This document shows positions 34,852-41,124 of a stretch of 64,000 nucleotides of DNA, one piece after another. A program made the translations under genes and the position numbers. The stretch lies in NCBI RefSeq assembly GCF_000400955.1, contig NC_021284.1:930001-994000 (forward strand), written 5' to 3'. Source of the DNA: Spiroplasma syrphidicola EA-1. Its GTDB lineage: Bacteria > Bacillota_I > Bacilli_A > Mycoplasmatales > Mycoplasmataceae. The stretch's first letter is position 1; each line of letters starts with the position of its first letter. The notes below the pieces were generated by a model. It saw only the letters and a program-made list of their open reading frames with translations, ran no database searches and was not told the origin of the DNA.

Positions 34852-36129
34852 TTATCTTTCTAAAGGTTTAAAGAGGTTTTTAATTACTAATGTTGGGAGC
34901 GAAATATTAAATTTACGATATAGTTTTATTGTCCCTTTTTCTCAATGATAATTTCAGATAGTTAAAGCCAAGGTAATAATATTAACAATTAATAAACTCA
35001 AAATAATTAATCCCATTCCTAAAATATAATCCTCATTTATTCAAAATAATAGTTTAGCAACAATTACTGGTGCTGGTAAAGTTGGCGTAATATTTTTTGC
35101 ATTTAAGTAATCTACTAATAAAAAGATACTTGTGAAAAAGTAAAGCAATAAACTTAAGGACACAATTCAACCAATAATTTGACCAATAATAAAACTTGTC
35201 ATTACAATATTTTTTGTCCGTAAATTTACAATTAAATTAAAACTTAGCGCAATAATTTCAATAACTGCAAAAATAATTAAAAAAATCGTTAAAACAAAAA
35301 CTAAATTTTTCGTTTTTAAAAGATAGTTTTTACCATCATAAGAATAAAAAATTCATTCCTTTGGGAAAAAATGGACTATCCCCGAAACAAAAATATAAGT
35401 TATCATTAAAGTTGCAACTAATTTAAGAAGAAACAATCCAAAATTAATTCACTTTTGAAAGAAAACTTGTCAGTATAAAGTCCCAAAAGCACTACTGTTT
35501 GCAAAAATAGTAGCTGCAATTTTTGTTGTATATTTTTGTTTATTTAAAATTTTTCAATTGTTATTAAAATTTTCATTGTCATTAATTTTAGGTTTTAAAT
35601 CATAGTAAGTAATTAGCCCTGCTGTTAATTTATTTTTTGAACGATACTGTAAATTAATTTCATTAACTTCAAAAAGAGTTGTTGTCGCAAAAGTCGTTAC
35701 TTTAATTGCTTCTTGATTGACAGGAAAAATTGTAAACATTGTTGATAAAGTAGTTGGGGTTAAAAATAAAATAATTTTTTTATCAAAAAAGAAAATTGCA
35801 CAAATAGCTCATAATAATGAAATAAAGCTGGCAGTCAAAAAAATCGTATAAAAAACCAGTCGCCCAGGATAATTTCAATTCGGAAAATAGTTATGAACAA
35901 AAGTTAAGTTCGCCGAAATTAAGATTAAAATCAAATCAGTTAAGGCAAATAAAAATGCTAATCCTAATCCACCATTTACTAAATAAAATAATTTTGTTAT
36001 TAAAACTTTTTGATGACTTTTTTTCTTTGTTCAATAATAATACTGATAACTAACTAAAAAAATCACACTAAAAATTCCTAATAAAATATTTAAAATAAGA
36101 TAATACTTTAATACTCCTAATTCTGTCAT
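34852..36129 (-). CDS. Polytopic membrane protein of the glycosidase-like cluster
   Basis: 425 residues with about eight hydrophobic helices: helices near 8-28, 50-75, 95-115 and 120-140, a soluble central domain of ~90 residues (FEVNEINLQYRSKNK and on), then about four helices and a short basic tail (LFKPLER). No transporter signature is recognised. Its ATG overlaps the end of the preceding lipoprotein gene by 13 bases, so it belongs to the same operon. It might be a permease or an anchor for the surface proteins encoded upstream. Ribosome-binding site GAGGAAAAA. Confidence 0.7.
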
Positions 36130-37328
36130 AATTTTTCCTCACTATTGATTTTAAAAGTAACATGGGTTCCAGCTGAACCACTTTGATTATCTATTTTTAA
36201 ATAACTTTGGTTACTACTTTTGATTCAGGCATATACATATGGTAATTCGCCATATTTTTCGTCTGATTTTCATAGATTTTTTAATAATGTTGTTGGTGGT
36301 CAAAAATCTGTTCCTTCAGGTTTATAACCTTTCTTTAAAATAACATTTAAATCAGATCCCTGAATAAAATGTGAATTATGGACATGTCCTGATCATTCTG
36401 CTAAATATTGTGCAACATCATTAACAACATCCCCAACTGTTGTTGTCTCATCATAGACTTTATTTGGCAATGGCTTTCAATCAATGTTTCTTCAATCATT
36501 TGTATTATAATCTGTCGAAGAAATCGTCACATTTCACACAGCTAAAATTTCTTGTTTAACATTAAAATTAAAACCAACACCAGCTAAATAGGGCTGATAA
36601 AAACTATCTGTTACGCTTTGATCAAATTGCAAACGTGAATGTTCTTCATCAAACTTTAAAAAATTACTTGTATCTTTGCCCATTGGTCGAATGATATTAA
36701 AAACTTCTTGGGGCAAAAGGTTATTATTATTTCATAAACCTTTTTTTTCAAAAATACTCTTGAGAGCCCCCATCCCTTCTTCTGTTTGTCCTCAACTATT
36801 AAAGGACTTAATAAACCCATCTAACAATTCTGCTTGTGATAACTTTGTTGGATGGTTAGAAAAATGAGCACTACTATCTTCAAAAAATGATAATTCACTA
36901 AAATCAACATCACAATTAACGGTAATTCATTTTTCATTTTGATAATGTCCCAATTCACTGGGAACAATATGAATTGTAAAATATGTGATCGGAAAAAAAG
37001 AACCAACAGTAGCAAAATCAATTAATGTATTTTTATTAGTTGTTTCTTCGCCACCATAATAAATTTCAATATTTATTTTGAAAAAATCAAGGCTCGGGAT
37101 TTTCTGCATTAAAATTTTATTAACCGTACTCTGCAAACTATCAAATTTTCCCAATTGGCTACTTAACATCTCATTAATTGTTCAAGGATAATTAGTAAAG
37201 AGACTTTCTGAAATTGTCGCTAAATCAAAATCTTCAGCTTTTACAATTGAAGTTTGACAACTCATAACACTTGTAAATGATGTTACAGATAATGATAAAC
37301 TTAGCATACTTAATAATAATTTTTTCAT
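36117..37328 (-). CDS. Lipoprotein of the glycosidase-like cluster
   Basis: 403 residues. Signal peptide with lipobox SVMSC (Cys24). The mature protein resembles the product of 39563-40705 in order of motifs: a helical N-terminus with LFxxxxW, an STV segment, KINIEIYYGG, an IDF strand, then LLDGF and a Gly-rich helix. The gene ends KLWQN because the TGA at 36126-36128 is Trp and the real stop is TAG at 36117. It therefore overlaps the next gene. Probably a ligand- or glycan-binding partner of the glycosidase-like lipoprotein; that is inference. Confidence 0.72.
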
Positions 37329-37348
37329 TGTTACTGTCCCTTTCTCTT

Positions 37349-39544
37349 TTAGAATGAATTAAGATAATAGATTAATTCATAGACCTGTTCACCAATTGTT
37401 TTATGATACTGTAAACCTGGTTGTTCAAAAATAATGTCACTCAATTGATATTTGTTAGGATATCATTTATATTTATTATCCCTTGTTGTTGAACTAGCAA
37501 ACCCGATGCCATTTAAAGCACGGTTTAAATTAAATTGTTCTTCCGGATATAATTTCATTAAAGTTTTTAGCTTATGAATTGCTTGAACTCCTTCAACATA
37601 ACTTTTAAAACGAGTACTATAACGCGGTCCATTAATATCACCAACATAAACTAAATTATCATCTCCCGATTCAAATTTTCCGGCCATTTCCCGTAAAGCA
37701 TAATAATCTTTATCATATAAATCATAAGACCAGCGAACATAACCATTAGCTCCAACCTTAAAGGCCATTAAAGGACCTCAAACCTGTTCACTATTATCAG
37801 ACTGTAAATAAGCGGCTGGAAAATTATTTCATGAAGTATATAACATTGTTGTATGTCCTAAACTTTGACGACGAATAATATTACTACGCAATTTATAAAT
37901 GTTTAAGTTATCAAATTGTTCAACTACTTCCCGATACTGTAAGATAATTTCATCATATTGATTTAAAAAGATATTTTGAATATCATCTTCATTAAAAGGG
38001 TCATAATGAAAGCGTCATCCAGCAAAAACACTTGAATCAATTAAACCATATTGATCATTTTTTTTAACATTATCCATTGTTGCTTTAACAGCTTCATGTG
38101 ATATTTCATCAAATGATTCTGCTAAATGAATTTGTTCTCCACTTGGGGTTTTAAATTCTGGTAAATCTCTAATTTTGTTTCAATGATCAGATAAAGCCTT
38201 AATAAATTTACTATGTAAAAAATCTAAGTACGCATCAAAATTTTTTCCTGGTCTTCCATCATTGCTACGAATTAATTCCACTGGGAAAGTTGTTTGTACT
38301 CCTTGTTTTGCATCATCGCCTTTTAAATAAAAGAAAGTAAAAGTCCCTGGGGCCATTGCCGAAAATAAAAATTCGGTAAAGCCTAATTGGGCAACAACTC
38401 GTAAATACTCATCAAATGCATTAAAATCAAATGTTCATTCTCAATCTTGATCTTTTAAAACCTTATTTAAATCTTCCTTACTAATATAATCATCATATTT
38501 TTCATCACTTCAACCACTTTTTTTCAATTTCCCTGTTCATTGAATTAACTGGTGGTTTCAACCAGGACCATATAAATAAAAATTATTACTTGCTCGTAAA
38601 GCTTTTAAATGGGCTAATAAATATGGTCGTTTTTCTGCCCGCAAATAATATGGCATATTATTTGGAATCGGACCAATTGTTGGCGCATCATCTTTTTCAT
38701 CTACTGGCAAAATATCTTCATCACTTTGGTCTAAATTAATATATGACATTGGGTTTGAAGGAAATGATGTCGCACTAAATCCAAAGCGTTCATTCATTGG
38801 GGAGCTACTATCATCGGTATCTAAAAGATAATTTTTTACATTCACTTCAAAAGGACGATTAATAACTTGGGGAGTATCATTATAAGAAAATTTTAATGTT
38901 AATTTCATTTTATGAATTCCTGTTGATGCTTTTTGATTAACAAAAAGACTGATTCAAACTGGTTGAACATTAAAATCCATTTTTGCTAACGTTTTTTCTC
39001 CAAAAGCATCAGGAATATATTGTGACCCTGGATAAATTGTATGATTTTGTGCAGCCGTTTTCGGAAAAGATTTAATATAAGTTAAGAAAACTGGGTCAGC
39101 AGTAATACCCTTTTCATCATCAACACTTTCAACTGATAAGCTTAAATCTTGATAATTATTTAATTCTTGTTTATTTAGCAAAATTAGTTGAATGTTTGTA
39201 TGTTCATTTTTTCAAGCTGTTAAGGTTGGATTATCATTTGAACAACGAAATAAATTATCGCGATTGCCATAAAAAACAGGGCTATTATTTTCATTAAGAT
39301 TGTAGGCACTATAATTAAATTTTGCATCCCCATAAAACGTATGAAAAAAATTATTATCATCAACTGCAATATTATTTTCACTACAACCATATTGAAAATT
39401 ATATTTATCAACATATTCTGATGATGAATTATTATTTCCACTAGCCCCATACCTTGTACAACTAATAACAGTCATGACAAAAGGGGGAACTATTATTCCA
39501 ACTAATAAAAACTGAATTCAATTTCGTAAACTTAGTAGTTTCAT
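37349..39544 (-). CDS. Glycosidase-like lipoprotein (DUF4091/GH123-type)
   Basis: 731 residues. Leader with lipobox VISC (Cys29) predicts an outward-facing lipoprotein. The order of features matches DUF4091/GH123 enzymes. An N-terminal beta domain has AWKNEHTNIQLILL and VWISLFVNQKASTGIHKMK. A catalytic barrel begins near WEWTFDFNAFDEYL. FDEIS (about residues 478-482) is at the place of the Asp-Glu catalytic pair. The C-terminus has GYVRWSYDLYDKD and YVGDINGPRYSTRFKSYVEG. Family members cleave beta-N-acetylgalactosaminides or related sugars. Substrate here is unknown. Ribosome-binding site GGAGG 18 bases after the previous gene. Confidence 0.7.
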
Positions 39545-39562
39545 GTTTTTCCTCCTTACAGC

Positions 39563-40705
39563 TTAAACGTTAAATCCGATATGTAACCCTGGGGCAGTGT
39601 CTAAAATAAACGATGTGTCTAATGAATCATAAAATTCAATTCAAACTCAATGATATTTTTCCTTGTTACTATTTGTATATGTGTATAAACTACCAATTTT
39701 GGTATTTAAATCTAATAAATTTGGATCAGAATAACCATTTTTACGAAAACGAATTTGATACGTTTTTCTGTCAACTGGGCGATCATATGTTTTTTCTAAT
39801 ATATCATTGGCATAAATTTCAATTGCTGGTAATATATCTTGTAATTTTGTTTCCAAAGTATTATTACCAGGAATTTGGGCATACTCATATTTTTTAAAGT
39901 CACTACTTTTAACCTCAACAGTAGCACCTGTTGAAATCATGATTTCTGGTTGATTAAACTTTCACATTGAAGCTAATAGTTTTTCGGGGACATATTCAAA
40001 CATATCTCATTTTACTTTAATCTGGTTATCTTTTTCTGGTTCAAACTGGTCACTAATTTCTAAATATTTTTCTAAGTTAGAATTTAATTTAATCTGCCCT
40101 TTTTGTAATTCCATTCCGGCACTTGTATCTAACCCCATGTCTTTTAATTGGTGGTTAAAGCCATCTAATACTAAATTATTGCCCACTAAGCTATTTCAAC
40201 TTGTTATAAGATTATTAAGATTATTCAGCGGTTTATTATTATTTAATTTAATAATTTGTTCTTCTGGGAATGCTCAGGCTGGGCGGTAATCACGCTCTAA
40301 AAAAGTATGCCCATAGAAACTACTCTCTTTTGTTGCAAAAATCCCAACCGTAAATCAAAAAATTAAATCCGTATTAAAAAAGTCATTAAAATCAATTTTT
40401 TGGGCCTTATAAAAATTATTATCATCAACATGGCCGTAGTAGACTTCAATTTTTCATGAATTAATTTCTTTCATTGGGAATGTTTTACTTAAATTATTAA
40501 TAACAGTACTACGAATTGATGGCATTAACCCATCATCATATCCCCTTAAACTATTTAAAGCTCAATTATTTTTTTCAAAAAGAAACTGTTCCGTAATTAT
40601 CTTCGCAATATCTTTTGATTCATGTCATAAAAAAAAGGTTCCTAAAAATGAAAAAATAATTACTATTGGAAACGTTAATGATACTATTGTAACTATCTTT
40701 TTCAA
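39563..40705 (-). CDS. Membrane-anchored surface protein, relative of the 36117-37328 lipoprotein
   Basis: 380 residues with an N-terminal hydrophobic segment (3-25) and no lipobox cysteine, so it is probably anchored by an uncleaved helix. The outer part has LFEKNNWALNSL, IRSTVINNL, WKIEVYYGH, KIDFNDFF and LVLDGFNHQL, which line up with LFTNYPWTINEM, LQSTVNKIL, KINIEIYYGG, LIDFATVG and LLDGFIKSF in the lipoprotein on the other side of the glycosidase-like gene. Start is TTG after GGAGGT; no ATG fits. Second gene of the cluster, 52 bases after the EIIB gene. Confidence 0.7.
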
Positions 40706-40757
40706 AAGGAACCTCCATTTCTCGTAAACATACTACGAAATAACTCTATAAATAATT

Positions 40758-41054
40758 TTATAGGTTTTTAATAAAATTAATAATACCCTCAGCATTATTA
40801 TTTACATATAAATCTGATGGTAAGATTTCAATTTTTACATTTGGTTGATTACTAAAAATTGTTGTAACCTTATCTTTTAAATAACCAATTTGTGGTGCTA
40901 ATAAAACAACATCATAATTTTCCGAAGTTAATTCGTTAATATTAACAGCCAAAAACTTAATATCATTTTGATTAGTTGTTAAAAATTCATTCATATTAGT
41001 AACAATCATTTTAGTACTAATTCCGGCCGAACATACTAAACAAATACTTTTCAT
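40758..41054 (-). CDS. PTS EIIB, lactose/cellobiose type (orphan)
   Basis: 98 residues with the EIIB-Lac/Cel fold. Cys8 in LVCSAGISTKMIV is the phosphocysteine with its P-loop-like turn, and VVLLAPQIGYLKD is the second conserved loop. Such subunits pass phosphate from EIIA to the sugar bound by EIIC. No EIIA or EIIC is in this window, so the partner genes must be elsewhere or the protein acts as a sensor of sugar flux. It leads the cluster down to 34852 and has a good promoter. Confidence 0.88.
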   Translation of the reverse strand: MKSICLVCSAGISTKMIVTNMNEFLTTNQNDIKFLAVNINELTSENYDVVLLAPQIGYLKDKVTTIFSNQPNVKIEILPSDLYVNNNAEGIINFIKNL

Positions 41055-41095
41055 CTTTGTTATCCCCCTACTTTAATTTTAAAGTTCACCAAATT

Positions 41096-41124
41096 ATTTT
41101 ACTAATTATTTAAAATAATTACAA
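41096..41124 (-). promoter_or_regulatory. Promoter of the EIIB-led cluster
   Basis: TTGTAA (41119-41124), 17-base spacer, TAAAAT (41096-41101) on the minus strand, about 40 bases before the EIIB start. No other promoter of this quality was found inside the cluster. Confidence 0.7.

Follow-up and report, generated by a model that had tools for sequence, protein, structure and literature searches.

A four-gene surface cassette around a probable beta-N-acetylgalactosaminidase lipoprotein in Spiroplasma syrphidicola

What does a run of five genes on one strand of the Spiroplasma syrphidicola EA-1 chromosome encode, and do the five belong together? Its genome consists of a single contig, 1,107,344 bases long (NC_021284.1), of which positions 930,001 to 994,000 were analysed; this whole stretch of 64,000 nucleotides is referred to as the window. 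A preliminary description had read the genes as a surface glycan-handling system led by an orphan EIIB protein of the phosphotransferase system (PTS). The observation is confirmed and the interpretation is half right, as the enzyme and the surface unit stand and the link to the PTS does not. The real unit is a cassette of four genes encoding an anchored protein, a GH123 lipoprotein, a lipoprotein paralogous to the first protein, and a seven-helix membrane protein. The EIIB gene is not part of this cassette.

Under genetic code 4, all five open reading frames (ORFs) are present where they had been placed, each on the minus strand. The features of the locus are as follows (positions are those of the window).

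40758 to 41054, minus strand: EIIB, the cassette neighbour, an orphan Lac-family EIIB of 98 amino acids (Pfam PTS_IIB)
39563 to 40705, minus strand: MP1, cassette gene 1, 380 amino acids, TTG start behind GGAGG
37349 to 39544, minus strand: GH123 lipoprotein, cassette gene 2, 731 amino acids, lipobox VISC, Pfam PF13320 and PF22680
36117 to 37328, minus strand: LP2, cassette gene 3, a lipoprotein of 403 amino acids, lipobox VMSC, paralogue of MP1
34852 to 36129, minus strand: TM, cassette gene 4, a polytopic membrane protein of 425 amino acids
34822 to 34843, minus strand: hairpin resembling an intrinsic terminator, 3′ of the cassette, stem of 7 bp, then a T-rich tail
41096 to 41124, minus strand: promoter-like site preceding EIIB, TTGTAA-17-TAAAAT, also found in S. 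chrysopicola

The intergenic distances from EIIB through MP1, GH123 and LP2 to TM are 52, 18, 20 and −13 nucleotides, with the coding region of TM overlapping that of LP2 by 13 nucleotides. The proposal of a single transcript stands in part: the last four genes are packed in the manner of an operon and this packing is conserved in other species, whereas a leading role of EIIB is not supported. The hairpin at 34843-34822 lies where a terminator had been claimed for the end of the unit. No Rfam match was obtained anywhere in the region.

The cassette is recognized through its relatives. In a blast comparison of the five proteins with neighbourhoods of 20 kb, the order MP1-GH123-LP2-TM was intact in five close relatives (G016, G018, G023, G024 and G026), where neighbouring genes are 0-18 nucleotides apart. 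In G032, which belongs to another genus, MP1 and GH123 are present and the genes after them resemble LP2 and TM in diverged form, and in G029 a relative of MP1 lies directly ahead of a GH123 gene. The genes flanking the cassette in G016 differ from those in the other four close relatives, and both sets differ from those in the window; with three distinct sets of flanking genes, the cassette is held at no fewer than three (at least three) chromosomal places within the genus. Ratios of nonsynonymous to synonymous substitution (dN/dS) of 0.10-0.23 in close pairs show purifying selection on each of the four genes. The cassette has eroded in seven further genomes, its genes decaying together. All four are disrupted by frameshifts and stops in G019, remnants are left in G015, G017, G020, G021 and G022, and in S. 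chrysopicola (G014) the sequence from mid-MP1 to just before the Mg-ATPase gene has given way to about 450 bases that match nothing. This replacement (L117, 9734-10186) carries a T16 tract at its junction with the MP1 remnant. A single-protein scan of the GTDB contig collection gave no confirmed relatives; the whole-genome searches did find them.

By its sequence, the 731-amino acid lipoprotein is a true GH123 relative, and profile searches bear out the DUF4091/GH123 identity that had been suggested for it. It matches the catalytic domain GH123_cat (PF13320; E 2.6e-19, 70.2 bits, cut-off 23.1) and the GH123 N-terminal domain (PF22680; E 6.5e-9, 36.2 bits, cut-off 27). The former is recognized in all 14 aligned members, 13 of which are relatives with 21-63% identity to the window protein. 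GH123_cat (PF13320) is the former DUF4091. Usage in the literature is consistent with this (PMC11087588). A profile of 14 Spiroplasmataceae GH123 sequences, compared with the PDB at a threshold of E ≤ 0.01, matched exclusively solved beta-N-acetylgalactosaminidases or GH123 proteins, the best being CpNga123 (E about 1e-20). The family is defined by a DE motif and substrate-assisted catalysis, in which the Asp supports the 2-acetamido group and the Glu serves as acid/base (PMC11087588). The pair was located at Asp479-Glu480, where it is profile-aligned with the catalytic D-E of 5fqe and is invariant in 22 of 22 family sequences compared. Further positions in common with the solved enzymes (R, Y, P, S, E and Y) are invariant in the 14 aligned sequences. 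The lipobox supports the lipid anchoring proposed earlier, and the trimming of an N-acetylhexosaminide is better narrowed: the protein is a probable beta-N-acetylgalactosaminidase.

Other GH123-like lipoproteins of the genus (L046, L047, L048 and L049) keep the DE pair, and their genes each precede differing sets of membrane genes, either a 924-amino acid membrane protein with a 344-amino acid protein or a small membrane protein. Several different modules thus seem to have incorporated a GH123 surface enzyme. G032 carries two distinct GH123 genes within 11 kb of locus L035 (2313-4706 and 11007-13307), the first of which lies outside the cassette.

Across 298 genomes of the order, relatives of the remaining proteins of the cassette turned up in Spiroplasmataceae only, and MP1, LP2 and TM had no sequence match in Pfam, NCBIfam, PHROGs or the PDB. 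MP1 is anchored in the membrane by its N-terminus and lacks a lipobox cysteine. Its relationship to LP2, already noted in the preliminary description, is seen in a profile-profile match of E 2e-25 across 380 columns. The predicted structure of LP2 is an alpha/beta protein (pLDDT 78) with no informative match in the PDB (best Foldseek E 0.9, best VIA-align Z 4.0), and an internal duplication of LP2 received no support from profile comparison of its parts. TM has seven long helices and a soluble insert at about residues 120-210; its model is of low confidence (pLDDT 69, pTM 0.46), with matches limited to helical bundles. The roles of the three proteins are inferred from anchoring, paralogy and co-occurrence.

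Taken together, the cassette is likely to be a surface glycosidase unit that trims terminal beta-linked N-acetylgalactosamine (GalNAc) from glycans of the arthropod host. The GH123 lipoprotein would be displayed at the membrane and remove this sugar from glycans such as LacdiNAc (GalNAc-beta1,4-GlcNAc), a known motif of insect N-glycans (PMC6935376). Catalysis would be retaining and substrate-assisted, with D479 steadying the 2-acetamido group and E480 acting as the acid/base. The paralogous MP1 and LP2 probably hold substrate or enzyme at the membrane, and TM may take part in assembly or transport. The released sugar could be used by the cell, as nagA and nagB are present in the genome for amino-sugar use. 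It is equally possible that the trimming changes attachment or recognition by the immune system. Some points weigh against this picture. Given the low identity of the window protein to characterized enzymes, its substrate might be a different beta-linked N-acetylhexosamine, or the specificity could be oligosaccharide-releasing as in related groups (PMC11087588). The accessory proteins are without known relatives, and their assigned roles consequently draw on position and anchoring.

The relatives point to a possible further level of control. Of eight cassettes or cassette relatives, five have T16-17 tracts upstream of MP1 (L031 12420; L033 13076; L034 8609; L035 14496; L039 7456), placed between a TTG and a −10-like element and 41-63 nucleotides 5′ of the start codon. 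The close relatives L030 and L031, with identical immediate flanks (GTTGA(T)nACTATAAT), carry T9 and T17, respectively, giving a TTGATT-TATAAT spacing of 9 bases in the first and 17 in the second. Differences of one to two bases occur in 5 of 10 further orthologue pairs. In a 2025 study of Spiroplasma, homopolymer indels were treated as likely artefacts. Since such indels may be assembly miscounts, the one-base differences are weakened; the T17/T9 case and the placement of the tracts are not.

The tracts are not peculiar to the cassette. Run counts, which rest on fetched loci (771 kb) and one pattern search, gave 15 A/T runs of length 9 and none of length 10 in the fetched sequence, with a second maximum at lengths 16 (16 cases) and 17 (12 cases). 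There are 106 occurrences of the pattern TTGNN-T13-N0..4-TANAAT, spread over 24 of 60 genomes, and 3 of the reversed control; G034 alone accounts for 19 of the 106. Lipoprotein-like starts were found in 59 of 89 readable ORFs downstream of tracts and, by the same crude test, in 60 of 356 background ORFs, although in a few merged regions the ORF chosen may not be the nearest to the tract. This suggests a class of promoters open to spacer-length switching, or phase variation. In mycoplasmas, vlp, maa2 and vmm are known to switch in this way, whereas the T-tract at the vpma promoter of Mycoplasma agalactiae is reported not to switch (PMC2268961), and on account of the latter the switching of Spiroplasma tracts stays a hypothesis. 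A T17 promoter tract, of the same length in S. chrysopicola, also occurs elsewhere in the genome of the window (L185, G000:C1:747274-750199). It precedes minus-strand ORFs 2567-1941 and 1939-1211, which encode a probable adenine DNA methyltransferase (NPPF, identified by eye) and a partner of 242 amino acids, a possible switchable restriction-modification locus.

In the relatives, the homopolymer-spacer promoter of the first gene could plausibly act as an on-off switch for the entire cassette. The window contains no A/T run of 11 or more, and its copy of the cassette is thus without a poly-T tract in the promoter spacer. In S. syrphidicola, the cassette lies 52 nucleotides downstream of EIIB, a gene unrelated to it, and may now be expressed from the EIIB promoter. 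A broader reading is that GH123, its two paralogous surface partners and the membrane protein form a phase-switched glycan-editing module, governed by T16-17 slippage, belonging to a family-wide set of poly-T-switched lipoproteins and locked under the promoter of a neighbour in S. syrphidicola; this is put forward tentatively, with the balance somewhat against it.

The enzyme might act on glycolipids of the bacterium itself, or on sugars of co-resident microbes or of the diet, rather than on host glycans. In favour of this, the cassette is found in species of differing habits, including the crab-associated S. eriocheiris (G016; PMC4607517). Against this, export as a lipoprotein puts the enzyme outside the single membrane, beta-GalNAc is at hand in the insect glycans mentioned above, and a housekeeping function is hard to square with the repeated loss of the cassette in relatives, which together make a non-host substrate unlikely. 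It is marginally less probable still that the GH123 domain serves chiefly to bind glycans as an adhesin, hydrolysis having become secondary or having been lost. Adhesins and antigens of mollicutes typically show such features as anchoring at the surface, a pair of large paralogous partners and, here in relatives, poly-T promoters; the invariance of the DE pair in 22 diverse sequences and of the further enzyme positions in 14, and the low dN/dS of the enzyme (0.10-0.18 in close pairs), speak for retained catalysis instead.

The EIIB protein matches PTS_IIB (PF02302; E 5.4e-8, 33.8 bits, cut-off 23.6), falls below the cut-offs of stricter NCBIfam models and keeps C8 within CSAGIST. No EIIC or EIIA gene is present in its neighbourhood and none was recognized at the orthologous loci; the genome does have several EIIC genes at other sites. 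Where the loci were read in relatives, the EIIB orthologues occupy a separate conserved site near a Mg-ATPase gene, mostly also with tyrS and 113-amino acid protein genes, and no cassette. As a result, the postulated PTS link is unsupported. The lipoprotein and membrane genes adjoining these orphan EIIB loci (L118-L127) vary by species, and in G026 (L127) the EIIB cysteine is replaced by tyrosine. None of the cassettes of the five close relatives or of G032 adjoins an EIIB gene. S. chrysopicola has kept EIIB and the MP1 remnant and lost the cassette. It seems that the cassette came to lie between EIIB and Mg-ATPase in the syrphidicola-chrysopicola lineage.

The "single good promoter" of the preliminary description is plausible, as the site is conserved in S. 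chrysopicola. With 9 of 12 consensus matches it is weak by itself, since 78 promoter-like sites were found in this AT-rich region against 53 expected. The short EIIB-MP1 gap, in which no terminator was detected, makes co-transcription with EIIB plausible here, as read-through from the EIIB promoter that would be local to the lineage of the window. That the five genes evolved together as an EIIB-led uptake operon, in which the surface enzyme frees a sugar that EIIB phosphorylates via the PTS, is very improbable: the close same-strand position without an intervening terminator and an adjacency older than the split from S. chrysopicola speak for it, and EIIB-free cassettes, cassette-free EIIB loci, the retention of EIIB in S. 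chrysopicola after cassette loss, and the lack of an accompanying EIIC or EIIA speak against it. A separate locus of the same genome (L134, 3419-7983) holds a probable alpha-mannosidase gene (start PHTHWDKEWY, identified by eye) beside a PTS protein of 615 amino acids, suggesting use of host or plant mannosides.

If the favoured reading of a host-directed glycosidase cassette is correct, the wall-less Spiroplasma, which is widespread in association with arthropods, insects among them, and with plants, would edit GalNAc-bearing host sugars at its surface through a dedicated and repeatedly lost module. Studies of host range and attachment would then have a definite enzyme to examine. The class of poly-T promoters would offer a testable mechanism for Spiroplasma surface variation, of which a literature search found no report.

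Among known systems, the closest enzyme is CpNga123 of Clostridium perfringens (5fqe family), an exo-beta-N-acetylgalactosaminidase that shares the GH123 catalytic domain, the aligned DE pair and the R/Y/P/S/E residues. The window protein differs in its low overall identity, its lipoprotein nature, its extra insert regions and its place in a cassette alongside a seven-helix protein and two anchored proteins that are paralogues. The DUF4091-containing beta-N-acetylgalactosaminidase groups 1-4 (Sumida et al. 2024, PMC11087588; PDB 8k2j, 8k2l) have the DUF4091/GH123_cat domain and DE motif in common with it, but the profile matched their structures more weakly (44 and 26 bits) than GH123 proper (75 and 68 bits). 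EIIB resembles the Lac/cellobiose PTS EIIB (PF02302) in its domain and its phosphorylatable cysteine region, in contrast to its weak score and the absence of adjoining EIIC or EIIA genes. The poly-T promoters recall that of vlp in Mycoplasma hyorhinis, where a homopolymer likewise lies between the −35 and −10 elements ahead of surface lipoprotein genes. In both vlp and the relatives of the window, tract length sets the −35/−10 spacing; in Spiroplasma the tract is poly-T on the sense strand and the switching hypothetical.

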